DNA of 64,000 bases from IMG/VR virus record IMGVR_UViG_3300037258_000145, positions 23,684-87,683 of that record; one strand, 5' to 3'. The notes beneath the pieces are model-generated. The model was not told the origin of the DNA. It did no database searches and saw nothing but the letters and a program-made list of their open reading frames with translations. The DNA is from a virus. Both the position numbers and the translations under genes were made by a program. Each line of letters opens with the position of its first letter. Position 1 is the stretch's first letter. This document shows, one piece after another, positions 3,430 through 64,000 of this stretch.

Positions 3430-5759
3430 AGGCCCGTACTCCCGCCGTCTTGGCTACCACAGGTCGACCCCTGCCAGTTGGCGTAGGTCTGAGCGGTTCC
3501 CTGTCCCAGGCACGCCACAGCCCATGTCCCGGTGTATACGTTGTTGCTCCAGAGGTTGCCGTAGTGCAGGACCACGTTGTTTTGCGTAGCGCTCCCGGCA
3601 TAGGGTGACCATCCGCACAAGTTCGGAGCACCCCCGGAACAACTCCCTGAGTTGCCCCACAAGGCTTGGTATCCGCAGAGGTTGGTCGACGCTGGAGGAG
3701 AGCCCGTTGGCGCCACGCAACCAGCAAGCGAAGTCGGCGCCATATTGAACACATCAGATTGCGCGGTTACGTTCTGACTGGCCCAGGTGCAGGCATTGAA
3801 ATAGGCGTTACCGTGCGACGTGCCATTCAGGTTGGCCACCCCACACCCCCCGGCGGCGCCCACACCTATCTCCACGCTGGTCCCGGTACCAACCGCGGGC
3901 GTTGTGAGCGTGCAGGCATTAGCGCTGGCGCACGTCGAAATGGTGTCGCCCGCCGTGATGCACGCGCTTGATCCTCCGCCGCATGTCGACGCCGCCCACA
4001 CGTAGTCTCCGTTAGCTGGTGTTGTGCCCGCGCCGGTCTGGATGTTCTTGAAGCCGGCAGCCGAGGTGATAGCCGTCGTACCGTTCGTTACCCCGTCAGC
4101 GACACCGAGACCGGCGTTGTCGTAGTACGTGGACGGGTTGACCAGCGGGCAGTTGAGTTGATAGGGCGAGCCACAGAACCGGTTGCGGTCCTGGTAAACA
4201 TCGATGCCATCCCAGTTGTTGGTGAAAACGTCGCCCTCGATATTGGCAGTGTTGGCAAGCGAAGAGACGAGACCGGACGAGCCGCTGATCGTGGTGCCAC
4301 CGGAGGACGAGATGTAAATGGCCGGTGTGTAGTTGGAGTAGATCGTGCTACTGCCATCGATCGGGCCCTCACCGTCGGCGCAGGACGCCGAGTGGCCATT
4401 GAAGGTGGACGACGAGCAGGACGGCCAAGAGAAGTCATTCGAGGTCCCGTTGCCCTCGAATAGGTTGTTCAGCACCTGGACGTTGGCGCTGGCCTCGAAG
4501 TCGAGACCATAGCCGAAATTACCCTGGATGACGTTGTAGTTGACGTCCAAGCCCGCGTTGTTAAAGTCGAACCAGGTGCCCACGTAGTAGTTAACGTCGA
4601 CCCAGTTACCCAGGGCTTGGCACTGCGAGACCGTGTCGGACCCATCTGGCCCGCTCCCGGTGGCGCACGTGCCTGGCGCCCCAAAGGTGACGTTGGTAGC
4701 CCACAGCAGCTTGCCACCGCCCGAGTTACCGCCTCCACCATCAGCGTTGTCGGGGTAGTAGCCGATCCCGTTCTGAGTAATCTCGTTGGACTGGATGGTG
4801 ATGTCATCGGCACCGCCGGCCGAATTGGGGTCGGGGCAATGCGTGCCGTCCCCGGTGCAGGAGACGTTGTAACCGCCTTGATTGTTCTCGGTGATGCAGT
4901 TGCCGGTCAGAACGTCACCGGTCCCAAGATTGACCCCGTACCCGTACGCCTCGTCACCCTGGTAGCTGCTCGTCCCGTAATTGGGGCCGATCGTGTTGTG
5001 CGCGACGGTCCAGTCCGGCGTGTCGTTTGAGTTGATCAGCGCGTTGTTGTTGCCGGTGGCCCATCCGGTCACGGTCAGGTACTCAACCGTCACACCTGTC
5101 GCCGAGGTCGAGCCGTCTATGGCGTAACCGTTGGCCGTGCTGGTGCCTTCGAGCGTGGCCTCAGGGGGGCTGTCCCCGGAGTTGTAACCACCCTCCAACA
5201 CGTCGCCCGTAAAGACCGTGAACCCCGTGGAGTTGGTGCTGAAGGTGTGGTTGCCAGGAGCCAGCCAGTAGCTTGTGCTCGGCGCGAGCGTGACTGAGGA
5301 ATTGTCGCCCGCTGCGATGGTCGTGAAGCCACCAGGGGCCGACGTAGGGCCGTGGAGCCCCGACGTAGCGCAGACCGCAGTCCCCGCCGTTGGAGCGTTG
5401 CCTCCTGGCGTCGTCGTGGTTGTGGTGGAGCTGCTGGTGGTACTTGAGCTGGTGGTCGTGCCCGACGTGCTCTGCGAATAGTTCGGGGGCCAAAAGACCG
5501 AGTTGAGCGACCAGGTGATGACAAGGACGCTGAAGGCGATGCCGATTACTGCCTCGGTAACCCTCAGGATGGCCTGGTTCCGCTTGTGGCGCAGGGTGAG
5601 GGCGGCGACTACCTGCTGGCGCGCATGGAGCATGATGGCACCGCATTCGAGACAGCCCATCCACCACTCGGTCGGGTCGTGACCGTGGATGCAGCGCTCT
5701 ACGACAGCGGGGGGCGGAGCCTGCTGGGGTGCAGCCCAGGTCGGGCGTTTTCTGTTCAC
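3426..5759 (-). CDS. Membrane-anchored beta-helix surface protein
   Basis: 777 residues. The N-terminus has four Cys/His-like zinc ligands (CIHGH...CLEC), then a single transmembrane helix at about residues 67-92, a Ser/Thr linker, and ~600 residues of right-handed beta-helix repeats with many cysteines, suggesting disulfides outside the cytoplasm. This architecture is unusual for a virion fibre, because the TM segment would tether it to a host or virion membrane. It may be a lysogenic/infection-phase surface protein or a tail protein with an internal helix. GTG 5759 follows the upstream stop by 12 nt. The beta-helix is inferred from pattern, not from a profile search. Confidence 0.7.
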   Translation of the reverse strand: MNRKRPTWAAPQQAPPPAVVERCIHGHDPTEWWMGCLECGAIMLHARQQVVAALTLRHKRNQAILRVTEAVIGIAFSVLVITWSLNSVFWPPNYSQSTSGTTTSSSTTSSSTTTTTTPGGNAPTAGTAVCATSGLHGPTSAPGGFTTIAAGDNSSVTLAPSTSYWLAPGNHTFSTNSTGFTVFTGDVLEGGYNSGDSPPEATLEGTSTANGYAIDGSTSATGVTVEYLTVTGWATGNNNALINSNDTPDWTVAHNTIGPNYGTSSYQGDEAYGYGVNLGTGDVLTGNCITENNQGGYNVSCTGDGTHCPDPNSAGGADDITIQSNEITQNGIGYYPDNADGGGGNSGGGKLLWATNVTFGAPGTCATGSGPDGSDTVSQCQALGNWVDVNYYVGTWFDFNNAGLDVNYNVIQGNFGYGLDFEASANVQVLNNLFEGNGTSNDFSWPSCSSSTFNGHSASCADGEGPIDGSSTIYSNYTPAIYISSSGGTTISGSSGLVSSLANTANIEGDVFTNNWDGIDVYQDRNRFCGSPYQLNCPLVNPSTYYDNAGLGVADGVTNGTTAITSAAGFKNIQTGAGTTPANGDYVWAASTCGGGSSACITAGDTISTCASANACTLTTPAVGTGTSVEIGVGAAGGCGVANLNGTSHGNAYFNACTWASQNVTAQSDVFNMAPTSLAGCVAPTGSPPASTNLCGYQALWGNSGSCSGGAPNLCGWSPYAGSATQNNVVLHYGNLWSNNVYTGTWAVACLGQGTAQTYANWQGSTCGSQDGGSTGL

Positions 5760-23625: not shown

Positions 23626-24008
23626 GTCTTGTCCACGAAGATGTGAAGGGTGACGTTGCCGAGGTTGTCGCTGGCGCGGATGGCTCCGATGTAGGTCATG
23701 TCCTCTACGTCGTCGCAGGGGGTGTGGTCCGGGACCAGGGCGAAGGTGTACTTGCGGATGGGGAGGGTGTGGTCGAAGATGCCCCAGGCTATGAAGCCCA
23801 TACCTGAGACGCTTTTGTCCACGCTCAGCCATCTGGCACCTTCGGGGGCTTGGACCTCTTGGGTCCTCATCATGGACAGGGGGACAGAGTGAATGAGCTT
23901 GCGGGGCTGCTCCACTGGGCACGGTACTCGCATTGCCTGGAGACGGTCCAGCGGTGTGCCCGCCCACGCGTCGCTGCCCATCTTGCCTAGACGGTCCTCG
24001 GCGCTCAC
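23622..24008 (-). CDS. Hypothetical protein
   Basis: 128 residues from GTG 24008, overlapping the upstream stop (GTGA). Beta-rich, ending VTLHIFVDKT. Not recognised. Confidence 0.55.
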   Translation of the reverse strand: MSAEDRLGKMGSDAWAGTPLDRLQAMRVPCPVEQPRKLIHSVPLSMMRTQEVQAPEGARWLSVDKSVSGMGFIAWGIFDHTLPIRKYTFALVPDHTPCDDVEDMTYIGAIRASDNLGNVTLHIFVDKT

Positions 24009-25261: not shown

Positions 25262-25546
25262 ATGGACCGCAGTTTGAACATCCTCGCCAAGTCGATCCAC
25301 CGCGTCGCCAACAAGCGGGCACCGATGGTCCCAGCTACCCCGTTGTTTGGGACAGTGGTCAGCGTTCAGACGGGTTCAGGACCAACAACGATCTCGCTGG
25401 AGATAGGCAAGACGGGGTCGATCATCGTTGGCGTCGGGATTCTCGGCAACGGATCCGGATGGACGCCCTCACCTGGCGAGCAGGTCTATTACAACTCCAT
25501 CAGGAACGTACCGCTGGCACTGGGGCCGGCCGGCAATCCGGCTTAG
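25262..25546 (+). CDS. Possible OB-fold tail or spike-like protein
   Basis: 94 residues on the plus strand. Beta-rich, with GTVVSVQTGSGPTTISLEI, which is spaced like OB-fold baseplate/spike units or single-strand binders. Leaderless start. It is isolated from other plus-strand genes and ends 4 nt past the convergent XF1762-like gene stop. Function is uncertain. Confidence 0.55.
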   Translation: MDRSLNILAKSIHRVANKRAPMVPATPLFGTVVSVQTGSGPTTISLEIGKTGSIIVGVGILGNGSGWTPSPGEQVYYNSIRNVPLALGPAGNPA

Positions 25547-25998
25547 AGGTACTTCCCCCAGCGCTCCTTATCCTCAGCGCCGCGTCGTGAACCAAAGAGC
25601 GTGTCGTCTTGGCGCGGTCTGCTCTCGCATCCCCATGGCCGAGTAGGTACGTCGGACTCCTTCACGAAGCCAGCTGCCTTGAGGCTGACCCCAGGTTCGG
25701 AGACCAGCTTGTACGTGATCACATGCCGATAGCCAAGCGCCTTTGCGGCCCGAGTTAGGGCACCGTAAAGCATGGAGTTGGCCATAGGAGTGCCCAGCGT
25801 GCAAGTACGTGTGATCTCGACCGTCCGACCGTCCTGCGCCCCGCGGCCGACTGGTCTGCCCGCCACTCCTACTCCGACCAATTCATCGCCCTCGCTCAGC
25901 CCCACGCCAAAGAGCCAGCCGATCGGAGGTTCACTGTGGCGATGGTGCTCGGCAATGAAGATGCGCGCCTGACGAAGCGTGATCGGGATCAGGACCAC
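25543..25998 (-). CDS. XF1762/GNAT-like protein
   Basis: 151 residues. HHRHSEPPIGWLFGVGL, GRPVGRG, EITRTCTLG, ANSMLYGALTRAAKALGY and VSLKAAGF follow the XF1762 family, phage proteins related to GNAT acetyltransferases. The target is unknown. Starts GTG 25998, 6 nt after the collagen-like gene. Confidence 0.75.
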   Translation of the reverse strand: MVLIPITLRQARIFIAEHHRHSEPPIGWLFGVGLSEGDELVGVGVAGRPVGRGAQDGRTVEITRTCTLGTPMANSMLYGALTRAAKALGYRHVITYKLVSEPGVSLKAAGFVKESDVPTRPWGCESRPRQDDTLFGSRRGAEDKERWGKYL

Positions 25999-27862: not shown

Positions 27863-30800
27863 TTACTTGGTACCAGGTAATTCTTCCCGCACATCCTCAC
27901 GTGGCACGTCGTGATTTTTTGTGTTGTACTGCATCTGGCGCACCTTCTGTGGCCAGTCTGCGTCTCCGCTGCCCGGGGTCCCCACCCAGGCAGCGGAGGT
28001 GGTGTGCCCTGCCTTTTGGAGCGCTTCGGTGCGGTAGTACCCGTCAGCGATGACCATCTTCGGCCCCGCGCCCGCCACTAAGACAATGGGCTTGGGCTGC
28101 TTGCCGCCCTTGATCTCTTCCACCTTTTCCTCGACACGGGCGGGGTCGCGCCCGCCGGGGCGGTGGGCCATTTCGATGTCGTCGAGGGCGACGGCGGGCT
28201 TTAGCTGCCACTCGCAACCCTTCACCCAGTCCAGGTCGACCTTGTCGTAGTGCTTGGCCAGGTACTTGTAGACGTGGTCAGCGGCATCGTCGTCGTCGTC
28301 GGCCTTACCGTAGGCGCCGGGCTTCACCTGTCCTTCAGGCCAGGGAGCGGGCGCTTTGGTAGCGGTGTAGCCGGGAGGGAGGCGGCGGTTCAGGAGGGAT
28401 TCGAACGACTCCTCGTCGGACTTCAGCGCCGGCGCGGCCAGGGTGTGCATGATCTGAGGCAAGCTCGCCATCATTTCGGGACGTAGTGGGAGCTGAGCCA
28501 GGTGGTTGGGGTCGAACCACGCCACGGCCTCGAAGCTGTCGCCGTCGGGATTGTTCACCTCGCGCCATTCGCCCTGGTTGACATCCACGCTCGCCTCATG
28601 GGCTGTCTCGACCACGAAGCCCTGATAGATGCCGCTCGTCCAGGAGCCGAGCCACTTGGCGTCTGCCGGTAGGAAGGTCCCTACCTCTTCGCCCCATTCC
28701 CTCGCCGCGCCTTGCTCGGGTGATTCGCCCGCCTCAAGATGTCCCCCTGGCAATTCCCACATGCCGGCGCAGGGGTCAGAGGGGTCGTTGGCCCGCTGGA
28801 GCAGTAGGACTCGCCCGGAGTCGAAGGCACGGAGCAAAGCGCCAGCACAGGTGACCTGAGGCGTGGCTGTGGTCATCGCTGGGCCTTCGGAATCGGGGCC
28901 CTGTGCCTTGGCGGCGTTGGCTTCGTCGAGGCGTTGCTGGCCCCACTGCTTGGGGTGCTTGGCTGGCTTCTTGCCGCACTGGAGGCAGCGCACTCCTGAG
29001 CCGACGTAGGCATGGCGTTGGGTGCGCTCGGCGACGTTGTTCGGTGCTACCTGGCCCGGTTCGGGGCCTGAGAGGTCGAAGGGGACAAAGCCAGTGTCCA
29101 GGGGTGCTCCGACGCTGATGTCCTTGGGAGTCGCGCGCGTGCGACTTTTGCTCATCCATGCGGGATCGGTGCCCTGCGTGGTCTGGCGGGCGATCGAGGG
29201 GCTTTGGGTCTGAGCTAGGACCGAGTCGCCCTGCTCATAACTGAGCGAGCAGGCGCAGGCGGGCCCTCCGAGGCACAGGGTATCTTGGCCGTAGTCCCCG
29301 TCTCCAGGGAATCCGGGCAGATCAGCGGGGCTAAACGTCTGGCCGTCGAGAGCCAGGCAGTTCTCACAATTTTCGGCGTCACCGAGGGTCCAGCGGATCA
29401 CACTGTTGGTGCCATCGGCATCCGGCGCCGCGGCGATGTAGCCCTGCTCGTACGGCGCCGTGAGCCCATCGGCGTAAGATTGGACCCTGGTAGCGGTCGA
29501 CTGCGCCCCGCTCGGTGCGTTGACCGCGCCTGCGACAACTCCACCGACTACGTCGAGAGCTAGGTCCTTCAGGTACGGCATCATGCTCATGGCCCGGGTT
29601 TGAGCTAGGGCGGGGGCACTCTCGGGACTGGGTGGGCTGGCAGCGTCCCCCCAGTCACCAGCCCCGCTACCGGCACCAGCGGTATATGCGTCCTGGTATG
29701 CCTGAGCCAGGATGGGGATGGCGGCCGGCGCGAACTGGGCGGGCTTTAGCTTGTGATCGGTGAGCTTGTGCACCAGGGCGGTCAGACCGGCCATCAGGGA
29801 GGCTCTGGGCTTGGCCAGAGCGGTCTCCCGGTGGTCTAGCCGTCTCTGGGCCTTAGCGGCCTTCAGGGCGGCCGTGGCGGGGTCCTGCTCGCCTTTGGCG
29901 GCCTTCAGGGCGGCAGGGCGCAGTGCTCGGGGCTCGAAGCTCTCCAGCGACTTGCCGCGGGCCAGATAGCGGCGCAGGGCGCGCAGTTCGTTTGCCTTCT
30001 CTTTTTGGCTGGCCGATTCGTGCGGCTCGGCATCTCCCGCCGCCGTCAGGCCTTGGTCGGCGGTGCTCTTGTCGGGTTCAGGAGCATTGCCGTTGGCGGG
30101 CGGTTTGGGTAGAGCAGGAGGCTTGTTGCCGGGCTTAGGCGGCGCTGGCGGCTTGCTAGCGCCGCCCTCAGGTGGCAAGGGTCGGGAGTTGGCGTCGATC
30201 GGGGCCGGACCTGAGCCGGGCGGAGGGGGCGGAGTTTGGCCCATGGGGATAACGCCGGTCGGGAGGAATTGGAGCGGCACCATCGACCAAGGCTCGTTGT
30301 AGGTCTTCAGGTCCAACGCGATGCACGCTTCGTCGATCGAGGTGAGAGACGCCTTGACGAGTGCAACTTGGTCGGTGATGCGGTCCGACAAGGTCTCGCC
30401 CTGGTCCATGACTCCCCAGGACCACGCCATGTCCGTCTGGCCGAACTTGCCCCGGATCAGGGGATCGAACAGGCCCGTTTTCAGCTTCTTGGCCAGGGGG
30501 ATGGCACTGCGGCGCGTCGTCTGGTCGGCGGCTTGGGTGGCGGCGTTCTTGGAGGCCGCCGGGCTCATCATCGAAGAGAGCTTGGGGGTGATGCCGAGGT
30601 CGCTGATCGACAAGCCGAACGGCATGGCGATGAGTGAGGTAAACCACGTGTCGATGTCGTCGGAGAGGTCGGCCGGCTTTTGGGGACTGACTTTTGCTCC
30701 AGGCGGTGTGACAATGACTTGATGCATGTTGGCGAGGTCGCCACCGAGTTGGTTGATCGCCTGCATGAGCTGGCGGGCTTCCTCGGGCGTAGCGATCGAC

Positions 30801-31900
30801 TCGCCGGGGTCCATGAAAACCGCCGGCAGCGACCCGTTTCGGAACCACTCACTTTGCCAAGTCTGACGGGCCAGCATCAGCGATATGGCCATGATGCCCT
30901 GTTCTGTTGGCCCCATGCCGTAAGGCGTCCAAGTCCTCGGGTTGGACTTGAAGTAGATCATCTCCGACCCGATCCACTCCTCACCCGTGGTGGTCAATTG
31001 GTCTAGCAAGGGGTTTAGCGCCTTGTAATCCTCGATCGTGGCGTCAGGACCGAGGTTGATGATGTCCATGAGGTCGACGCGGGGCACGCCCCAAAGCACC
31101 TGTTGATAGGCCACGGCTGGCTGCTTGGGTCGGGTCCCCCACTCGTCCATCAGGGGCTTTATCAAACTGGCATCTTGTAGGCACAGAGCACCCACGCTTG
31201 AGCCAGCCGGACCGTTCCCCTTCCCACCCGCTGGCTGGAGATAGATGGCCACAGCATCCAGTACAAGATTGTCTTCGAAGAGGGCATTGAGCCAGAGATC
31301 GCCTGAGTCGTACTGGTCAGGGTCAGGGTTCGCAAAGAACTCCATCAGCTCGCCCTTGCGACTCTCCCAGTCGGCTTTCTTGGAGGGATTTCCCTGCATC
31401 CCTGCTTGAGCGGCGGGCGTCGGGACTATGTCGTAGTCGGCGACGATAAGGTCCGCTTTTCTTATTTCTATGCACGTCCGACCAATAGCGGGTATTTCGG
31501 CTAAATCGCGCAGCTGAGCGAAGTTTGCGAGCTTAATTCCTTCGGTGCCGGGCTGGCCGATCGGCAAATTCCAACCGACCATCGGCTGAAGTCGCCTCGG
31601 GCGGGGCCGTCCGTTCGGCTCCTCCGGTATGTCGATGGGCACCGGCAGGATCGGTGACAGCGGGGAGAAGTCGCCGCTCGTGAACGTCTGCATGGGGCGC
31701 GGCAGCCCCAGCAATCCCTCGTATGCCTGACTGGCCCAGCCCGCGGCCTGGCCTGGCAGTTGGTACATGTTCGCCCGAGGACTATTGGGCTGGATGCCGT
31801 TGGCCCCGACGTCACCAGGACGAGCAGAATTGATAACGGCCCTAGCCAAGGGGTTCACGAGCCGAGCTTTCGTGTCGAGGTGGAGTTCAGATGTCCCCAA
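27863..31900 (-). CDS. Portal protein fused to MuF-like, NUDIX and ParB-like domains
   Basis: About 1345 residues from TTG 31900; a GTG at 31858 (14 codons in) overlaps a short CTG-led frame and may be the true start. Residues ~20-560 are portal (IGSEMIYFKSNPRTW, TPYGMGPTEQG, PFGLSISDLGI). Residues ~700-900 are MuF-like head morphogenesis (LGDAENCENCLALDG). Residues ~1016-1150 hold a complete NUDIX box (GHLEAGESPEQGAAREWGEE, then VG) at ~1053-1075. Residues ~1236-1325 are ParB/sulfiredoxin-like (KPIVLV...MVIADGYYRTEAL). Domain order is portal, MuF, NUDIX, ParB. The last two on a portal are very unusual. Confidence 0.85.
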   Translation of the reverse strand: MGTSELHLDTKARLVNPLARAVINSARPGDVGANGIQPNSPRANMYQLPGQAAGWASQAYEGLLGLPRPMQTFTSGDFSPLSPILPVPIDIPEEPNGRPRPRRLQPMVGWNLPIGQPGTEGIKLANFAQLRDLAEIPAIGRTCIEIRKADLIVADYDIVPTPAAQAGMQGNPSKKADWESRKGELMEFFANPDPDQYDSGDLWLNALFEDNLVLDAVAIYLQPAGGKGNGPAGSSVGALCLQDASLIKPLMDEWGTRPKQPAVAYQQVLWGVPRVDLMDIINLGPDATIEDYKALNPLLDQLTTTGEEWIGSEMIYFKSNPRTWTPYGMGPTEQGIMAISLMLARQTWQSEWFRNGSLPAVFMDPGESIATPEEARQLMQAINQLGGDLANMHQVIVTPPGAKVSPQKPADLSDDIDTWFTSLIAMPFGLSISDLGITPKLSSMMSPAASKNAATQAADQTTRRSAIPLAKKLKTGLFDPLIRGKFGQTDMAWSWGVMDQGETLSDRITDQVALVKASLTSIDEACIALDLKTYNEPWSMVPLQFLPTGVIPMGQTPPPPPGSGPAPIDANSRPLPPEGGASKPPAPPKPGNKPPALPKPPANGNAPEPDKSTADQGLTAAGDAEPHESASQKEKANELRALRRYLARGKSLESFEPRALRPAALKAAKGEQDPATAALKAAKAQRRLDHRETALAKPRASLMAGLTALVHKLTDHKLKPAQFAPAAIPILAQAYQDAYTAGAGSGAGDWGDAASPPSPESAPALAQTRAMSMMPYLKDLALDVVGGVVAGAVNAPSGAQSTATRVQSYADGLTAPYEQGYIAAAPDADGTNSVIRWTLGDAENCENCLALDGQTFSPADLPGFPGDGDYGQDTLCLGGPACACSLSYEQGDSVLAQTQSPSIARQTTQGTDPAWMSKSRTRATPKDISVGAPLDTGFVPFDLSGPEPGQVAPNNVAERTQRHAYVGSGVRCLQCGKKPAKHPKQWGQQRLDEANAAKAQGPDSEGPAMTTATPQVTCAGALLRAFDSGRVLLLQRANDPSDPCAGMWELPGGHLEAGESPEQGAAREWGEEVGTFLPADAKWLGSWTSGIYQGFVVETAHEASVDVNQGEWREVNNPDGDSFEAVAWFDPNHLAQLPLRPEMMASLPQIMHTLAAPALKSDEESFESLLNRRLPPGYTATKAPAPWPEGQVKPGAYGKADDDDDAADHVYKYLAKHYDKVDLDWVKGCEWQLKPAVALDDIEMAHRPGGRDPARVEEKVEEIKGGKQPKPIVLVAGAGPKMVIADGYYRTEALQKAGHTTSAAWVGTPGSGDADWPQKVRQMQYNTKNHDVPREDVREELPGTK
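29128..29146. repeat. 19-bp palindromic repeat, copy b
   Basis: Identical to the copies at 17604 and 50869. Encodes S-R-T-R-A-T in the portal fusion, in the inter-domain region between MuF and NUDIX. Confidence 0.75.
31855..31890 (-). CDS. Possible 11-codon CTG leader before the portal
   Basis: CAT-CTG at 31890 after GGGGA opens 11 codons to TGA 31857-31855, overlapping GTG 31858 (GTGA). The SD-like GGGGA is weak. A coupled start would be consistent with the other CTG sites. Confidence 0.3.
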   Translation of the reverse strand: MNSTSTRKLGS

Positions 31901-36125: not shown

Positions 36126-36342
36126 ATGGTTTCCGGTGCTGAGCAGCGTTGATGCAGGTTGCGAAGTGGCTCAGGAACCTACGGCCCGGAGGATCGGACG
36201 CCGTGGCCACATGGACGTTCTCGCCGTCAGGATGTAGGACCAGGTTCCCGTTTAGGGCGGGTTGGGAGTCGATCGGCATGGACTTACCGGTGGAGGTCTT
36301 CACCCATCTGACGGGGGCTGAGCATGACTTGCAGACGCTCAC
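36115..36342 (-). CDS. Conserved actinophage zinc protein
   Basis: 75 residues. CKSCSAPVRWVKTSTGKSMP and SHFATC are like a family common in actinophages beside terminase genes; CxxC...H/C may bind one zinc. GTG 36342 overlaps the upstream stop (GTGA). Confidence 0.65.
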   Translation of the reverse strand: MSVCKSCSAPVRWVKTSTGKSMPIDSQPALNGNLVLHPDGENVHVATASDPPGRRFLSHFATCINAAQHRKPSAH

Positions 36343-37274
36343 AGGAAGGCCTCAGACGGCTCGACGTCGATGGACGAGTCCTCGGTAACGTCATCGAACA
36401 GCGAGGGCACCGATGCGGCCAGTTCGGCCTTGCGCAGGTTCTCGCACGCTGTCTGCCAGTACGAGGGCTTCAGTTCGATCCCCGTGAAGCGTCGACCCCA
36501 CTCGATGGCCACGTAGCCCTCGGAGCCGATGCCGGCGAAGGGCGACAGGACCAGTTCGTCAGGGTTGCTCCACAGCCTCACACAGCGCTCGATGAGCGGG
36601 AGTTGGAGCGGGCAGATGTGGCGCTCGTCGGCGTCGTCCGCTCCGGAACCGGGATTGAGCGTGGCCATCTCGGCGATGTCGTACCAGATCGGTGACGCCC
36701 ATTTGATCCACGTTTCGTTATCGATGTCGGGCTTGATCGGGACCTCGTTGTCACCCGGCTTGTGGAAGATAAGGACGTAATCGGCCATGGCTGGCCGTGA
36801 CAGGGCCGAGTCCCGATGCAACTGTACGAACATGAGCCCTTGCGCTTTGGTGCGCACCGCCTGGAGCTGGGGGTTCTTGTCGACCGTTACCTCGCCGTAG
36901 TAAATCCATCCCGCGTCAAGATGCGCTTGGATGACTCGGCCTCGGAAGTCCTGGAGCCCGACGTAGCCCTCCCTCGACTTCAAGATGGCGATCTGCTGGA
37001 CGTGGACGGCGCAGGTGCGACCCGGCTTCATCACCCGTAGTAGCTCGTCAATGACGAAGGCGTAATGCTCGATGAACTGGTCCGTGCTCGTCGAGTTACC
37101 CAGGTCACGATCACTCGGGCTGTACGTGTACAGCGAGGCGAAAGGCGGGCTGTAGACGCACAGGTCGATGGAGTTATCCTCCAGCTCGGCGAGGCGCTCG
37201 ACGCTATCGCCTAGTCGTAGATGCCAGCATTCGCCGTGGGCGTCGTCCGTCACGTATGGCTGAGGGTCGCTCAT
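36339..37274 (-). CDS. DNA N4-cytosine/N6-adenine methyltransferase
   Basis: 311 residues. SPPF at 42-45 (motif IV) and FAGIGSEGYVAIEWGRRFTGIEL (motif I/II) identify an amino-methyltransferase of the beta class, with motif order IV then I. Overlaps the helicase gene by 71 nt. With that helicase it may form a methyl-modification pair; protects phage DNA or alters expression. Target sequence unknown. Confidence 0.9.
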   Translation of the reverse strand: MSDPQPYVTDDAHGECWHLRLGDSVERLAELEDNSIDLCVYSPPFASLYTYSPSDRDLGNSTSTDQFIEHYAFVIDELLRVMKPGRTCAVHVQQIAILKSREGYVGLQDFRGRVIQAHLDAGWIYYGEVTVDKNPQLQAVRTKAQGLMFVQLHRDSALSRPAMADYVLIFHKPGDNEVPIKPDIDNETWIKWASPIWYDIAEMATLNPGSGADDADERHICPLQLPLIERCVRLWSNPDELVLSPFAGIGSEGYVAIEWGRRFTGIELKPSYWQTACENLRKAELAASVPSLFDDVTEDSSIDVEPSEAFL

Positions 37275-38565
37275 CGATGGGCCCCTTTCGAAGTTGGGAG
37301 TAGGTGACTAGACCGTGCGCGGCATCGGCGGCCTCGCGTTCTTTACGCTGTACGTTGTCGACGATCTGGCGCTCAAGGTTCGACACGACGATACGCACAT
37401 CGACCGGCTCGGTCTGGCCGAACCGGTAGCAGCGCCGGATGGCCTGGTAGTAGGCCTCGTAGCTATCAGACAAGCCGAGGAAGACCATGCGGGAGCACTG
37501 CTGGAAGTTCATCCCGAACCCAGCGATCGCCACCTTGGTCACCAGCACCCGGATAGCGCCATCCTGGAACGCCTCTAGAGCACTGGCCTTGGCCTCGGGC
37601 GTCATCGACCCTTCCACGTTCACGGCGCCTTTTACGCTCGCCGCCACCGCGTCAGCTTCGGCGTTCAGCCCGCACCATACGACCCACTGGTTGCCGTCGT
37701 CCACCAGACCGACCGTGCGGTCTACCCGGGCATCCATCGTGTGGTGACGGACCCTTGACCGCCCGCCGATCCCCCCAAGCTCGGTGGCGAAGAGTTGGCC
37801 CTCAGGGGTTATCTCGACGTCGACGACTTCGGGCGTGATCGTCAAGGGCGGCAGTTCGTAACCCTCGTCGGGATAACCCATGTCGGATGGCTTGCGCAGC
37901 GCTACGGCCCAGCCCGCCATCCACTGGTACATCGGTATCGCAGCGTGGCCCTTCAGACGCCAACCGACCTCGTCGTGGACAAAGAACGCCGCCAGCATCT
38001 CTCGCCGGCTCATCACACCCAGGAACTCGGCATGGTTGCACAACTCGGCTACGTCGTTCGGCGCCGGCGTCGCCGTGCAGGCCAGACGGGCAGGGACGGA
38101 AGCGAACGCCGTAGTCAGTCGTTGACGGACTCGGCCCTCAACGTTTTTCAGGATGCTCGACTCGTCCAGGACGACCGCCCCGAAGTCGGACGGGTCGAAC
38201 CCGTCGGTCATCTCGTAGTTCGTGACCCATATCCCAGGCCCGTTCGCCTCACTACCGTGGCGCACGTAACGAGCAGGGATACCTATCGATTCGGCCTCTC
38301 GGACGGTCTGACGGGCTACGGACAGCGGAGCGACGATCAGCGACTTAGCAGCGGAATGCCGCGCCCAGTCCAATTGACATCTCGTCTTGCCGAGCCCGCA
38401 GTCAGCGAAGATCGCCGCTCGGCCCTTACGGATAGCCCACGTTGTGATGTCCCGCTGGAAGTCGAACAGAGACGGGTGCAGATCGGACGGCTCGACGACG
38501 GGGCCGTGGTCTGGGGTCGCCCGCTGCTTGCGAGCCAGGAAGTCAGCGTAAGCCTCAGCGTTCAC
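37204..38565 (-). CDS. SNF2/DEAD-like helicase
   Basis: 453 residues from GTG 38565, overlapping the upstream stop (GTGA). Walker A ADCGLGKT at ~54-61, DESS (motif II), TATPAPND (motif III), and QAIRRCYRFGQ (motif VI) give a SF2 helicase/translocase. Immediate neighbour is the amino-methyltransferase, a pairing also seen in other actinophages. Probable role: DNA remodelling for replication or modification. Confidence 0.85.
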   Translation of the reverse strand: MNAEAYADFLARKQRATPDHGPVVEPSDLHPSLFDFQRDITTWAIRKGRAAIFADCGLGKTRCQLDWARHSAAKSLIVAPLSVARQTVREAESIGIPARYVRHGSEANGPGIWVTNYEMTDGFDPSDFGAVVLDESSILKNVEGRVRQRLTTAFASVPARLACTATPAPNDVAELCNHAEFLGVMSRREMLAAFFVHDEVGWRLKGHAAIPMYQWMAGWAVALRKPSDMGYPDEGYELPPLTITPEVVDVEITPEGQLFATELGGIGGRSRVRHHTMDARVDRTVGLVDDGNQWVVWCGLNAEADAVAASVKGAVNVEGSMTPEAKASALEAFQDGAIRVLVTKVAIAGFGMNFQQCSRMVFLGLSDSYEAYYQAIRRCYRFGQTEPVDVRIVVSNLERQIVDNVQRKEREAADAAHGLVTYSQLRKGPIDERPSAIRDGRRPRRMLASTTRR

Positions 38566-38765
38566 TTCAGCACCAGCGTGACTGTCGGGTCCAGGTGAGC
38601 TACCACGCCGTGGGTTTCGATGGCGCAAAACAAGGCGTCGGTCTCGGTCCAGAAGTGTTGCTTGTGCAGGTCAGGAGCCCCGACGTCGTAGGTGACCTCC
38701 CATTCTGGAGCGGTGAAAGTTATGGTCTTGCGCCCGTCCTCTGTTTTGCCGCGAACAATCTTCAC
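38562..38765 (-). CDS. Hypothetical protein
   Basis: 67 residues from GTG 38765, overlapping the upstream stop (GTGA). Short beta-rich protein (KTITFTAPEWEVTYDV). Unknown. Confidence 0.5.
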   Translation of the reverse strand: MKIVRGKTEDGRKTITFTAPEWEVTYDVGAPDLHKQHFWTETDALFCAIETHGVVAHLDPTVTLVLK

Positions 38766-58242: not shown

Positions 58243-59397
58243 CTAGCTTAGCGTATCGGTCACGTCAGGTCTAGGGCGGCCGTAGTCCCTGACTTGGCGG
58301 AGCAGACCGATGACGAAGTCCCAGTCGCCTTGCTCAAGGTCGGTCAGGTCGGCCGCTACCTCCAGACGCACGGTGCCACCTGAAGCGAGCGTGATCGTGC
58401 GCGCCCATTTGGGTGGGTCGGGTAGGTCGACGTTGCGGAGAGGTAAGTCCATCTCGGGGATGAACCGGCGGGGGGCTGGCACACTGGCGATGGCAGGCGT
58501 CCCACTACTGAAGGCGGTTACGGGCTTCTCGGCGGCAGCTTGCACGATTGACTCCCTCGATACTCTCGTCTGAGGCGGTATGGCCCTGTCAGGGTGCCTG
58601 GTGCGCAGATGACGGACCAGGTTCTTGGTCGTGATCGACTCCAAGCAGACAGGACAGGGCGTGGTCGGAGAGGTGGCCACGGGCTCCCTCCTCCTGTCGG
58701 GATGATGCCAGCGGACATGATTGCCAACGCCACCCTTGACGGGCTCGACGCAGCCGTACGGACACGCCTCCTCGGTGTCCCTGGTCTGACCGCACCACCT
58801 CATGTGACCAGCGCGGCCGGCGCTGTCTTTGAAGTCGGACTTGCCACACTTCGGGCAGGGCTTGGGGTAACCCGATGTCCTATCCGGACTACTCCCAATT
58901 GAAGAATCTGACAACGATGTCTGTTTCATTTGCGCATCTGTGTCTACGGCCGGCGCTGTCTTCTCAGCCTCGGCGCGCGTCGGTGCCAGTTTGAGCGTGG
59001 ACTGGTGAGGATGATGGTTCTTGCCGCTGCTGTGGACAGGGACCGGTTTGGGGTCTTCGATCTTGCCCGACTCAGGAAGGTGTGGGACCGGGAAGCTGGA
59101 GACCAGCGCTTCCCGGGATGAAGCGCCCTGCTGGTTCAGGCTCTCGGGAGACTGCACAGGGTCGTAAGCCCGGACCCTTGGAGCGGACGCTCCATCTCCC
59201 CAGATTTCATCGACGTCGGCACCGAACGAACTGGCCCACTGAATAGCCATGTCCTCGGTGATCGCCTTCCAACTTCTCATGGCAACTCGGACCTCTCGGC
59301 ACCCGAGGCGGGCGGCGGCGTTCACACCCGAACCGGTCGACTCCAACCAGTCAGCAAATTTGGAGACCGAGAACATCTGGACAGCGATCTCAGACAC
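58243..59397 (-). CDS. Protein with three C2H2-like zinc fingers
   Basis: 384 residues from GTG 59397, overlapping the upstream stop. N-terminal helical unit, a disordered middle, then CPKC...HMRWC, CPYGC...HVRWHH and CPVC...HLRTRH, three tandem finger-like units, and a beta-rich C-terminus. DNA-binding fingers of this type are uncommon in phages. Neighbours MT-A70 and whiB. Function unknown. Confidence 0.75.
   Translation of the reverse strand: MSEIAVQMFSVSKFADWLESTGSGVNAAARLGCREVRVAMRSWKAITEDMAIQWASSFGADVDEIWGDGASAPRVRAYDPVQSPESLNQQGASSREALVSSFPVPHLPESGKIEDPKPVPVHSSGKNHHPHQSTLKLAPTRAEAEKTAPAVDTDAQMKQTSLSDSSIGSSPDRTSGYPKPCPKCGKSDFKDSAGRAGHMRWCGQTRDTEEACPYGCVEPVKGGVGNHVRWHHPDRRREPVATSPTTPCPVCLESITTKNLVRHLRTRHPDRAIPPQTRVSRESIVQAAAEKPVTAFSSGTPAIASVPAPRRFIPEMDLPLRNVDLPDPPKWARTITLASGGTVRLEVAADLTDLEQGDWDFVIGLLRQVRDYGRPRPDVTDTLS
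58245..58250 (-). promoter_or_regulatory. Leaderless -10 box (TAAGCT) for whiB
   Basis: 7 nt ahead of ATG 58237; TAGACC about 17 nt upstream as -35. Confidence 0.65.
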
Positions 59398-60265
59398 CGT
59401 AGACCGCCTCCTTAGCGAAGACTTGGTACCGCTCGAGCTTCGGGTACATCCGCTCAACTAGTTGGTCCAGATGGGAATGCAACGGGCCGGCCGGACCGTA
59501 ACCGGCCCCAGGCTCCAACATCGTCCCTGGCTTGAAGGCCGGCGTGAACTCGCCGCGGGTGGCGTACAGGATGAACTCGTGCTCGCCCTTCACCCACAGC
59601 CCGTTGTAGTCGCTGTTCTCCTCGGCGCTCGGCCAGATCAGACAACTCCGGTAGGTCATTTGCCAGGCTCCGAGCACTGACAGGCCGTCAGGGAGCTTGT
59701 CGTGGGGCACCCACAGGAACAGGGCGCACAGCGGAGCGGCAGGGACCGTCACGTCGCAGATGTCGTCGGTGTCCATGTGTTCCCACGGAGCGTCAGCGAT
59801 CAGGACGGGCCAGGTCTTGCGTTCTTCAGGGGGGATGGAGGCCTGATGTTGACGGGTGACCTCCTGTGCCCGCTTGGAGCGTTCGGCGTGGACTTCGTTA
59901 CGAAGGTCGCCTGAGGTCAGGTTCTCGGCCTTGGCCCGCTTCAGGAGGGCTCTGGCTGTGTCTGGTGGGAGGGCCGCTACCTCGCGGTGATGAGCAAACG
60001 GCACTCCAGGTTCGCGCATGCCTTGAGGGAACCGTTTAGCCACCCAAGCCGAGGCCCGGATGGTCGACAGGGCGTAGCCCGTGGGAAGTGCTTGGGCGGC
60101 TGACTCGCCATACGCTCGCTCCCCATACAAAAACCACTCACCGAGTACCCACTGGATGCCCTTTTCCATCTCCTGGAGTTGGGCGCCGACCTCTTCCCAT
60201 TCGGCATAAGTCAGCCCTGGAGGGAGCATGAGCCCTTCGGGCGTCCACCACTCTTTGAGGCTCAT
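59390..60265 (-). CDS. LmbU-like N-terminus fused to MT-A70 adenine methyltransferase
   Basis: 291 residues. N-half (YGERAYGESAAQALPTGYAL, VAALPPDTARALLKRAKAEN) is LmbU-like. C-half has VLIADAPWEH (the DPPW equivalent; here DAPW), LCALFLWVPHD, KGEHEFILYATRG and YPKLERYQVFA, which mark MT-A70 N6-adenine methyltransferases. A non-canonical DAPW may affect activity. ATG 60265 in an ATGA overlap. Confidence 0.75.
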   Translation of the reverse strand: MSLKEWWTPEGLMLPPGLTYAEWEEVGAQLQEMEKGIQWVLGEWFLYGERAYGESAAQALPTGYALSTIRASAWVAKRFPQGMREPGVPFAHHREVAALPPDTARALLKRAKAENLTSGDLRNEVHAERSKRAQEVTRQHQASIPPEERKTWPVLIADAPWEHMDTDDICDVTVPAAPLCALFLWVPHDKLPDGLSVLGAWQMTYRSCLIWPSAEENSDYNGLWVKGEHEFILYATRGEFTPAFKPGTMLEPGAGYGPAGPLHSHLDQLVERMYPKLERYQVFAKEAVYGV

Positions 60266-62123: not shown

Positions 62124-62130
62124 GAAAGGC

Positions 62131-62136
62131 ATGTTA
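62131..62136 (-). promoter_or_regulatory. Leaderless promoter: TTGCCA-17-TAACAT
   Basis: TTGCCA 17 nt upstream, TAACAT, then 7 nt to ATG 62123. The palindrome again touches the -35. Confidence 0.65.
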
Positions 62137-62157
62137 GCGCATCGACAGACCGATGGC

Positions 62158-62183
62158 AATACGCGCGGTGACCGCGCGCTTTG
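62158..62183. repeat. Dispersed palindrome copy 7
   Basis: Joined to the -35 of the gam promoter, as copy 6 is. Centre base differs (GGTGACC rather than GGTCACC). Confidence 0.75.
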
Positions 62184-62195
62184 GGGACTTGGCGG

Positions 62196-62228
62196 GAGAC
62201 GGGCCCCCCATCGGAGAGGACCCGTCTC
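62196..62228. repeat. Inverted repeat between divergent operons
   Basis: GAGACGGG and CCCGTCTC, 17-nt loop, no T-run. Could be a hairpin or operator between divergent promoters. Confidence 0.45.
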
Positions 62229-62296
62229 AACCTTGTACGGCGCGCCTTAGTTATGACCACCTCAACTCGCCGTGAAAGTCACCTTACCAGATCGGT

Positions 62297-62302
62297 TAGG
62301 CT
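62297..62302 (+). promoter_or_regulatory. Leaderless -10 box (TAGGCT)
   Basis: 8 nt ahead of ATG 62311 on the plus strand. Confidence 0.5.
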
Positions 62303-62310
62303 CGGCAAGT

Positions 62311-62886
62311 ATGGCCACCGTCCCCAAGCCTCCCGGCCCCGGTATCTTGCCCGACCTGGAACCGCTGTGCGTCCCGACCGACAAGGTCCACCTGTTCCCC
62401 GGCAACCCTCGTGTCGGCGATGTCGACGCCATCAAGGAATCCATCAAACGGTTCGGCGTTCACCGTGCCTTGGTTGCCCGGCGTAACGGAGATCTCCTGA
62501 TCGGCAACCATGAGTACAAGGCGATGGTCGCGCTCGGGTTTGAGCGGGTGCCGGTGATCTGGGTCGATGACAACGAGGCTGAAGCTCGGGCTAGGAACCT
62601 CGCCGACAACAAGCTTGGTGAAATGGGGGGCTACGACAACGACCTCTTGATCGAAATGCTCTCGTATGTCGCTGGCGATGCCGAGTTGTTCGCGGCCACG
62701 GCGTACACGCAAAAGGACCTGGACGCCCTGCTCGGTGAGTTCGACGCCACGACTGGCGACGCGCCCTCCAGCGATTTGGCCTCCAGTTACCAGGTGGTCG
62801 TCACCTGCACCGATGAGCACCAACAGGCCACGCTCCTAGAAGAGTTGACGGGCCGAGGCCTCAACGTTCGTGCCGTAGTCGTCTGA
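62311..62886 (+). CDS. ParB-like nuclease/partition-domain protein
   Basis: 191 residues from ATG 62311. VHLFPGNPRVGDVDAIKESI, KRFGVHRALVARR, LLIGNHEYKAMVALGF and RNLADNKLGEMGGYD match ParB/RepB/Spo0J N-terminal domains. Lacks an obvious HTH and DNA-partition C-domain, like phage ParB-type enzymes next to DNA-modification genes. Operon with the ABC-GNAT fusion. Confidence 0.85.
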   Translation: MATVPKPPGPGILPDLEPLCVPTDKVHLFPGNPRVGDVDAIKESIKRFGVHRALVARRNGDLLIGNHEYKAMVALGFERVPVIWVDDNEAEARARNLADNKLGEMGGYDNDLLIEMLSYVAGDAELFAATAYTQKDLDALLGEFDATTGDAPSSDLASSYQVVVTCTDEHQQATLLEELTGRGLNVRAVVV

Positions 62887-62902
62887 ACCAAAGGAGCAGC
62901 CG

Positions 62903-64000
62903 TTGAAAACCACCCTGGAAGTCGAGGTACCCATCTGTCGGTCGCCGCGCGTCATGCAGGTGGAGAGCCTGTTTGACGTCCCGGCCGCCGAGCACGCCAA
63001 GCGGGCCTGGGAAGTAGACCTGCCGATCGAGGACAAGGACTGGAACGTCGGCCTCATCGTGGGCCCCTCGGGAGCAGGCAAGTCCCGAGTAGCACGCAAG
63101 GTGTTCGGACCGGCCGTGATGGACGGTTTCGACTGGGCGCCCGACAAGGCGGTCGTCGACGGTTTCCCGGCCGAGATGGCGGTCAAGGACGTGACTGGGC
63201 TACTCGGGGCGGTCGGGCTCGGGTCTGCGCCGGCATGGTTACGACCGTGGGGGTCGCTCAGTACGGGCGAGCAGTTCAGGGCTAACGTCGCCCGCGCCCT
63301 AGCCGAGATGCCTGAGCTGGCCGTGATCGATGAGTGGACTTCGACCGTCGATCGTCAGGTGGGCAAGGTCGCATCCGCCGCCGCGGCCAAGGCAGTACGT
63401 AAGCGCGGTCAGAAACTTGTGGCCGTCACCTGTCACTACGACGTCGAGGAGTGGCTACAGCCCGACTGGACGTACCAGCCCCACACGGGCGAGTTCACCT
63501 GGAGGTCCGTTCAACCCCGACCCCAGGTCCACCTCGACATCTTCCCGATGGGACGCCAAGCGTGGAGCGTCTTTCGGGTCCATCACTACCTGAGCGCCAG
63601 GGCCCCCTATGGGCGCTACTTCGGGGGTTTCGTGGGCGATGAATGCGTGGCCTACGTGGTCGTAGCGGGGACACCTCATCGGGCCGCCAGCGCCAAGCTC
63701 ATCCGCCGAGCACACCGGATCGTGGTCCTGCCCGACTGGCAGGGGTTGGGGCTCGGCACGGCGATGGTGGATTTCCTGGCCCAGTTCTACGTCGAGAAGG
63801 GGTACCGGTTCCGTGTCGTAACGGCCCACCCTGGTTTGCTGCGCTGCTATGCCCGCTCGCCGCGATGGCGCTACGAGGGCAAGATCGGCCCCGGTGGAGC
63901 TACCAGTAACGTTTCGCTACGCGCTCACCAGTCTGAGCCACGGATGATGCAGGTGCGAGCCTACGAGTACCAGGCGCCCAGCGGGACAGTGATCCCTCGC
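62903..64000 (+). CDS. ABC ATPase fused to GNAT acetyltransferase (3' end outside window)
   Basis: 366 codons open to the window end. TTG 62903 has AAGGAG 6 nt upstream. Walker A GPSGAGKS at ~54-61, signature LSTGEQ, Walker B LAVIDEWTS and CHY (H-loop) form an ABC ATPase. From ~205 a GNAT domain follows (IVVLPDWQGLGLGTAMVDFL with the QGLGLG P-loop). Membrane domains are absent, so it is a soluble ATPase. Acetyl acceptor unknown; a DNA-modification role like that of Mom is possible. Confidence 0.8.
   Translation, partial: MKTTLEVEVPICRSPRVMQVESLFDVPAAEHAKRAWEVDLPIEDKDWNVGLIVGPSGAGKSRVARKVFGPAVMDGFDWAPDKAVVDGFPAEMAVKDVTGLLGAVGLGSAPAWLRPWGSLSTGEQFRANVARALAEMPELAVIDEWTSTVDRQVGKVASAAAAKAVRKRGQKLVAVTCHYDVEEWLQPDWTYQPHTGEFTWRSVQPRPQVHLDIFPMGRQAWSVFRVHHYLSARAPYGRYFGGFVGDECVAYVVVAGTPHRAASAKLIRRAHRIVVLPDWQGLGLGTAMVDFLAQFYVEKGYRFRVVTAHPGLLRCYARSPRWRYEGKIGPGGATSNVSLRAHQSEPRMMQVRAYEYQAPSGTVIPR

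Follow-up and report, generated by a model that had tools for sequence, protein, structure and literature searches.

Two adjacent phage genes for a ParB-like protein and an ABC ATPase–GNAT fusion probably form a DNA-base acyltransferase

The window analysed here is a stretch of 64,000 nucleotides corresponding to positions 23,684–87,683 of an 87,683-bp virus record, which begins and ends with the same 127 bp and so represents a circular genome of 87,556 bp. At the right end of the window, two plus-strand genes encode a ParB-like protein and a soluble ABC ATPase fused to a GNAT domain, a pair named in the original prediction and confirmed here by rechecking the ORFs, translations and coordinates. 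The fusion gene does run past the window, as had been claimed; because the genome is circular, it can be read to its stop, which lies 21 nt further on at record position 148. The features of the locus are as follows.

62127–62310, no strand: intergenic region separating the minus-strand Gam operon from the divergent plus-strand ParB–ABC–GNAT operon, from sequence
62157–62182, no strand: copy of a 26-bp palindrome, AAtacGCGCGGTsACCGCGCGctTT, from sequence
62311–62886, plus: ParB-like partner gene, 191 aa, from ORF, profile and fold searches
62782–62883, plus: conserved ~35-aa partner tail, about residues 158–191, the proposed ABC–GNAT docking element, from alignments and model
62890–62896, plus: ribosome-binding sequence AAAGGAG of the ABC–GNAT gene, from sequence
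62903–64000, plus: ABC ATPase–GNAT fusion, 372 aa in all, including the 21 nt beyond the window, from ORF and profile searches
62903–63511, plus: ABC ATPase domain, about residues 1–203, with Walker A, signature, Walker B/catalytic Glu, D-loop and H-loop intact, from profile, alignment and fold
63515–63970, plus: GNAT domain, about residues 205–356, with HHYL motif, CoA-binding RIVVLPDWQGLGLG and W322, from profile and alignment

Translation of the fusion starts at a TTG codon at 62903, 16 nt after the end of the ParB-like gene and 6 nt after AAAGGAG. The intergenic region 62127–62310 contains only a weak sigma-70-like match, on the minus strand. Across it lies the minus-strand operon in which a Gam protein had been expected and is indeed found (PF07352, E=3e-11). 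Its supposed MT-A70 enzyme (59390–60265, minus) has no Pfam MT-A70 match: this protein joins an LmbU-like N-terminus (NF038070, below cut-off) to a methyltransferase-like C-terminus that carries DAPW instead of DPPW. Given the missing match and the altered motif, its methyltransferase activity is in doubt, and it is possibly inactive or a regulator. The phage host is probably an actinobacterium, since the genome encodes WhiB and its terminase is nearest to that of Streptomyces phage TurkishDelight (48% identity).

The ParB-like protein is matched weakly in Pfam (PF02195, E=1.3e-3) and clearly in PHROGs (phrog_620, ParB-like, E=7.6e-32), and Foldseek retrieves Noc and ParB–CTP structures for its ParB N-terminal fold (E about 1e-6). 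Its AlphaFold model (pLDDT 88) is similar to Noc and to ParB with CTP bound, with weaker similarity to sulfiredoxin and free serine kinase. A ParB/Srx-fold domain spans about residues 18–145 and is followed directly by the C-terminal tail; DNA-binding helices are possible. The GERRxRA-type motif, which is the CTP motif of the canonical ParB/Noc clamp, is absent; the window protein has GNHEYKA and its relatives mostly GN(G/H)R..A. In all partners, the tail follows the pattern YxVxVxCxDExxQxxLxxxLxxxGxxCRxL, in which E169, Q172 and G183 are nearly invariant. It is modelled confidently, but in the model of the isolated protein its strands have no pairing partner, an arrangement that would fit edge docking onto another protein. 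The tail may not be exclusive to the ABC–GNAT system, because Arthrobacter phage Ranunculus encodes a ParB protein with a weak, partial tail match and no ABC–GNAT was found there.

Both halves of the fusion protein are recognised by Pfam (ABC_tran, E=3.5e-7; Acetyltransf_1, E=9e-8), and the chain is matched over its whole length by phrog_11143, annotated 'unknown function' (E=3.4e-95, residues 5–344). It shares 29–51% identity with 65 relatives. Walker A (GPSGAGKS), the signature (LSTGEQ), Walker B (D143–E144) and the H-loop (H178) are all present in the ABC half, as is the CoA loop QGLGLG in the GNAT half. Alignment of 66 relatives revealed that the Walker A Lys, LS.GE, the Walker B Asp with the catalytic Glu, the D-loop, the H-loop His and the stretch RxVxLPDxQGxG are invariant or nearly so, the conserved positions including K60, S120/G122, D143/E144, H178 and Q280/G281/G283. 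By these motifs, the ABC and GNAT domains both look active. In the AlphaFold model (pLDDT 91, pTM 0.86), the ABC half resembles the transporter ATPases FtsE and MetN, and the locus is without a membrane partner. ABC transporter ATPases dominate a whole-chain fold search, which was uninformative on the GNAT half, and no solved GNAT structure emerged as a significant relative of the GNAT domain (best E=0.012).

To place the pair in context, 391 fusion loci were surveyed in phage records, IMG/VR and GTDB genomes, of which 317 remained after dropping near-identical copies. A single query recovers relatives in at least 595 viral contigs. The family is distributed over Planctomycetota, Actinomycetota, streptococci and Pseudomonas, with many prophages, and its occurrence among phages is patchy. 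A tail-bearing partner lies directly upstream of the fusion in 271 of the 311 non-redundant loci with upstream sequence: ParB plus tail in 201 and a short tail-only protein in 70, with no adjacent partner detected in the other 40. The tail-only partner is a microprotein of 49–65 aa comprising little beyond the tail, encountered in Mu-like Pseudomonas and Porphyromonas phages and in Roseibium and Stappia genomes. In one set of loci, the commonest spacing between partner and fusion is a 22-nt overlap (59 loci), followed by a 4-nt overlap (19 loci), a signature of translational coupling. The pair has varied neighbours, mostly packaging genes. In many prophages, terminase and portal genes follow it directly; in Pseudomonas phage Komp_PAO1_1, it comes after the tail-fibre assembly gene. 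In Porphyromonas phage 008a, which is Mu-like, it stands past the tail genes at the extreme right of the genome, the place of com–mom in Mu.

The most informative comparison is between two streptococcal phages. Streptococcus phage Javan128 encodes ParB_N fused to an N6_N4_Mtase domain (PF01555, E=5e-24). In the same slot, upstream of terminase, Javan141 has a ParB gene with the tail, then ABC, then GNAT, all as separate genes. The two phages share 97.2% DNA identity over 845 bp, a stretch that begins ahead of the gene and ends inside the ParB coding sequence; beyond that point, one continues into a SAM-dependent N6/N4 methyltransferase and the other into the tail and ABC–GNAT. One and the same ParB domain thus serves a DNA methyltransferase or an ABC–GNAT in sibling phages, which constitutes the strongest evidence for DNA as the substrate.

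Downstream of the fusion, and often overlapping it by 4–13 nt, lie genes for enzymes that handle acyl and amino groups. In 15 non-redundant loci, including Rhodococcus phage Jace, one Alsobacter and one Gemmataceae genome, an aspartate decarboxylase (PF02261, best E=2e-33) is accompanied by a half-size CoA-transferase-like protein of class III (PF02515, best E=4e-10). The two genes usually follow the fusion directly, decarboxylase first, and the decarboxylase never occurs alone. A different gene, for a formyltransferase-like protein (PF00551), comes next in a clade whose partners are ParB proteins (Gordonia phage Axumite and its relatives) and in a further clade, of Mu-like phages, whose partners are tail-only proteins. 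It was seen in 62 loci across two scans and in Komp_PAO1_1, Axumite, Porphyromonas phage 008a and Stappia. These proteins conserve the HPSLLP motif and the catalytic Asp, but Gly replaces the usual catalytic Asn in 96% of them, so their chemistry may differ from the usual. Single loci have a CoA-transferase (PF01144), a GT2 glycosyltransferase or a hexapeptide acyltransferase gene overlapping the fusion. The window fusion falls inside the clade of decarboxylase/CoA-transferase operons (tree support 0.88–0.93), and no donor or tailoring gene was found in the window phage genome.

Several observations were made alongside at these loci. Gp3 of Gordonia phage Axumite (L016, 1805–2452), annotated as 'tRNA-methyltransferase', matches PF00551 (E=1e-8), and the annotation is likely wrong. 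A family of 143–168 aa without a Pfam match overlaps the 3' end of the ABC–GNAT gene in three distant phages (L063, 5059–5490; L181, 1806–2237; L232, 6104–6610) and is a further candidate tailoring or donor enzyme. Some contigs (L368–L373) have two ABC–GNAT genes about 1.06 kb apart in one locus, which flank the decarboxylase and CoA-transferase genes.

Taken together, the two genes likely encode a ParB-associated, ATP-driven DNA-base acyltransferase of the phage. DNA is the likely substrate because of the exchange with a methyltransferase, the mom-like and terminase-adjacent positions, and the ParBc-domain neighbours of the phage enzyme CmoX; an acyl group is likely because the downstream neighbours are enzymes of acyl and amino chemistry. 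We infer the course of the reaction, the docking role of the tail and the purpose of the modification as follows. The ParB-like protein would bind or scan DNA with its ParB/Srx domain and hold the ABC–GNAT by the conserved tail at its C-terminus. Like others of its kind, the ABC domain should dimerise on ATP; it would drive a conformational change, for instance one that clamps the DNA or exposes a base, and the GNAT domain would transfer an acyl group from acyl-CoA to the exocyclic amine of a base, shielding the phage DNA from restriction. Related phages would probably make their own acyl donor, with aspartate decarboxylase supplying beta-alanine and the class-III CoA-transferase-like protein activating it; elsewhere, formyltransferase-like, hexapeptide acyltransferase or GT2 enzymes could trim the adduct further. 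The window phage, being without donor genes, would use host acyl-CoA.

A beta-alanyl refinement of the base-modification reading is worth stating, if with less than even confidence. In the window clade, beta-alanyl-CoA formed from phage or host beta-alanine would be a plausible donor, and other phages would decorate the free amine of the adduct. We tentatively propose that phages of the clade run a self-contained DNA beta-alanylation, in which the decarboxylase and the half-size CoA-transferase yield beta-alanyl-CoA and the ABC–GNAT places its acyl group on the exocyclic amine (+71 Da), while the formyltransferase-like, hexapeptide-acyl and glycosyl transferases of sister clades cap or elaborate the product. 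As part of the same proposal, and held equally loosely, the ~35-aa tail could be a universal docking element through which DNA methyltransferases and ABC–GNATs exchange ParB or other targeting parts.

Comparison with known systems sharpens what is shared and what is not. The Mom protein of Mu (PF25680), which momylates adenine at N6, is placed in the GNAT superfamily in the literature and likewise modifies phage DNA; a small upstream gene, com, overlaps the mom gene, and the operon occupies the right end of Mu-like genomes. Unlike the module, Mom has no ABC domain, com does not encode the tail-only protein, and the com–mom operon is without donor-synthesis genes. Membership of the fusion in the Mom family was considered and rejected on an hhalign comparison of low power, Mom being a single sequence (probability 0.1%, E=0.55, the match lying outside the GNAT domain). 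The notion of a base-modifying GNAT gained comparative evidence from the swap and the operon context; its link to Mom reduces to the general GNAT fold and the genomic position.

ParBc domains have been described as fused to DNA methyltransferases and as neighbours of the phage cytosine carboxymethyltransferase CmoX (PMC12783734). The CmoX system resembles the module in serving phage DNA hypermodification, in its ParBc-domain neighbour and in its second-step decorating enzymes; it differs in being methyltransferase-like and in using Cx-SAM and an AMP-forming ligase, and ABC–GNAT proteins are not mentioned in that account. Closest in architecture is a phage GNAT coupled to an ABC ATPase, for which an acyl modification of a DNA base was predicted, with Tenacibaculum phage pT24 named as an example; the accessible text, which restates Iyer et al. 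2013, puts the Mu-type DNA-modification idea for ABC–GNAT proteins already in print (PMC7824862). The architecture is the same, homology is detectable and pT24 is among our tblastn matches, and the prediction agrees with the reading given here. The accessible portion of that account makes no mention of the ParB/tail partner, of donor or tailoring enzymes, or of the methyltransferase swap; the operon context found here may partly stand in Iyer et al. 2013.

Proteins, RNA and small molecules are also known substrates of GNATs, and other readings were weighed. There is a small chance that the module acetylates tRNA or another RNA, as TmcA and NAT10 do in forming N4-acetylcytidine. TmcA consists of an ATP-driven motor and a GNAT domain, a layout which the fusion resembles; the motor of TmcA/NAT10 is, however, an RNA helicase and not an ABC ATPase, their substrate is RNA, and the NAT10 profile match is weak and not significant (E=0.09). 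RNA as the substrate is also at odds with a partner ParB domain that is interchangeable with that of a DNA methyltransferase, and with the mom-slot and terminase-adjacent positions.

The same reading assigns a role to a neighbouring ASCH-domain gene (PF04266, E=3e-4), which would act on N4-acylcytosine. This gene lies past the window end, convergent with the fusion and overlapping its 3' end by 15 nt. Convergent ASCH genes within 600 nt of the fusion occur in 18 non-redundant loci including that of the window, a count from the fusion loci alone, and a DUF3850/ASCH-like gene follows the fusion in a marine ParB-less subclade. The E. coli ASCH protein YqfB hydrolyses N4-acylcytosines, with Thr24 as the nucleophile (PMC6972931). 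The ASCH protein of the window phage departs from the Lys-Thr-Glu triad, with KTIETR against K-x-x-T-x-R and Glu at the Thr position, and YqfB-type hydrolase activity is therefore unlikely. Since Glu takes the place of the nucleophile, the protein possibly reads the modified base rather than hydrolysing it, a role for ASCH domains that Iyer and colleagues reportedly suggested in 2013.

Slimmer still is the prospect of protein acetylation for host takeover, in which the GNAT would target a host protein on the DNA, RNA polymerase for example, and the ParB-like protein would be a DNA-tethering cofactor. Phage GNATs of this type are known, Rac of phiKMV-like phages among them (PMC7824862), but such a function leaves unexplained both the swap with a DNA methyltransferase and the aspartate decarboxylase, CoA-transferase, formyltransferase-like and GT2 partners.

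A defence operon, the other function raised in the original prediction, is less credible again and was set aside. In this scenario, ParB and the ABC ATPase would sense foreign DNA for defence or superinfection exclusion and the GNAT would be a toxic effector. ABC ATPases and ParB-like nucleases do occur in defence systems (PMC10853773), and the patchy distribution of the module would agree. Against this, PADLOC returned only generic ATPase and methyltransferase matches and no core gene set, neither a nuclease nor an immunity partner was found, the survey turned up no restriction nuclease, and Gam and the methyltransferase-like protein are encoded in a separate, divergent operon; the late, packaging-side position and the donor-synthesis genes suit a biosynthetic role better. 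Least probable of all is a function in small-molecule or pantothenate/CoA metabolism, with the GNAT acting on a metabolite and the decarboxylase feeding host CoA synthesis: aspartate decarboxylase does make beta-alanine for pantothenate, but it is always accompanied here by the class-III CoA-transferase and the ABC–GNAT (15 of 15 loci), most modules are without a metabolic gene, and the ParB/tail partner is nearly constant.

Acylation of DNA bases by the ParB-associated ABC–GNAT, if true, would bring to phage DNA chemistry a writer that draws on acyl-CoA and is powered by ATP, and would explain a widespread family. With the operon context, 'some acyl modification' can be narrowed to beta-alanyl, perhaps formyl-capped, bases, a chemical prediction that bears on phages already isolated. 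The survey also brings out the partner with its conserved tail and the natural exchange of methyltransferase and ABC–GNAT behind one ParB domain; product, partner and donor are all absent from the accessible part of the earlier account (PMC7824862). A literature search returned nothing on ABC–GNAT/COG2401 and nothing linking aspartate decarboxylase with DNA modification, and the acyl-DNA prediction appears untried in the literature. Modifications of this kind shield phages from restriction and matter for sequencing and phage engineering.

The palindrome noted in the intergenic region belongs to a set of nine near-perfect 26-bp copies over the circular genome, mostly intergenic, with the consensus AAtrCGCGCGGTsACCGCGCGyaTT.

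Window 8346, 24704, 31898, 41694, 50437, 56933 and 62157, no strand: palindrome copies, 26 bp each
Record positions 5359 and 18066, no strand: palindrome copies, 26 bp each

As an RNA hairpin, the copy at 62157 shows no unusual stability (z = -1.4). The copies may act as operators, stoperators, terminators or centromere-like sites, and the one at 62157 is a possible ParB site.

Further observations concern the rest of the window. At 36339–38628 (minus), an N6_N4 DNA methyltransferase (PF01555, E=2.7e-19) adjoins a protein with a Helicase_C domain; by this match the phage also has at least one ordinary DNA methyltransferase. A small protein at 25543–25998 (minus) belongs to the XF1762 family (NF045478, E=6.8e-48), whose function is not known, and profile comparison revealed no similarity between it and the ABC–GNAT. 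The 1345-aa protein at 27863–31900 (minus) is an unusual fusion of a phage portal region and a NUDIX domain (E=1.2e-19); by eye, a Cys-rich MuF-like stretch follows the portal and the C-terminal segment is ParB-like (IADGYYRTEALQKAG). Finally, a recurrent leader surrounds start codons at about 56900, 57560, 62105 and 62270 of the window and at about 1150–1205 of locus L009, with the peptides AKLxFMTT, KMTFMTT and MKVTL and DNA like GTGAAAGTCA/TTTCATGA; it is perhaps a phage promoter or translation signal.
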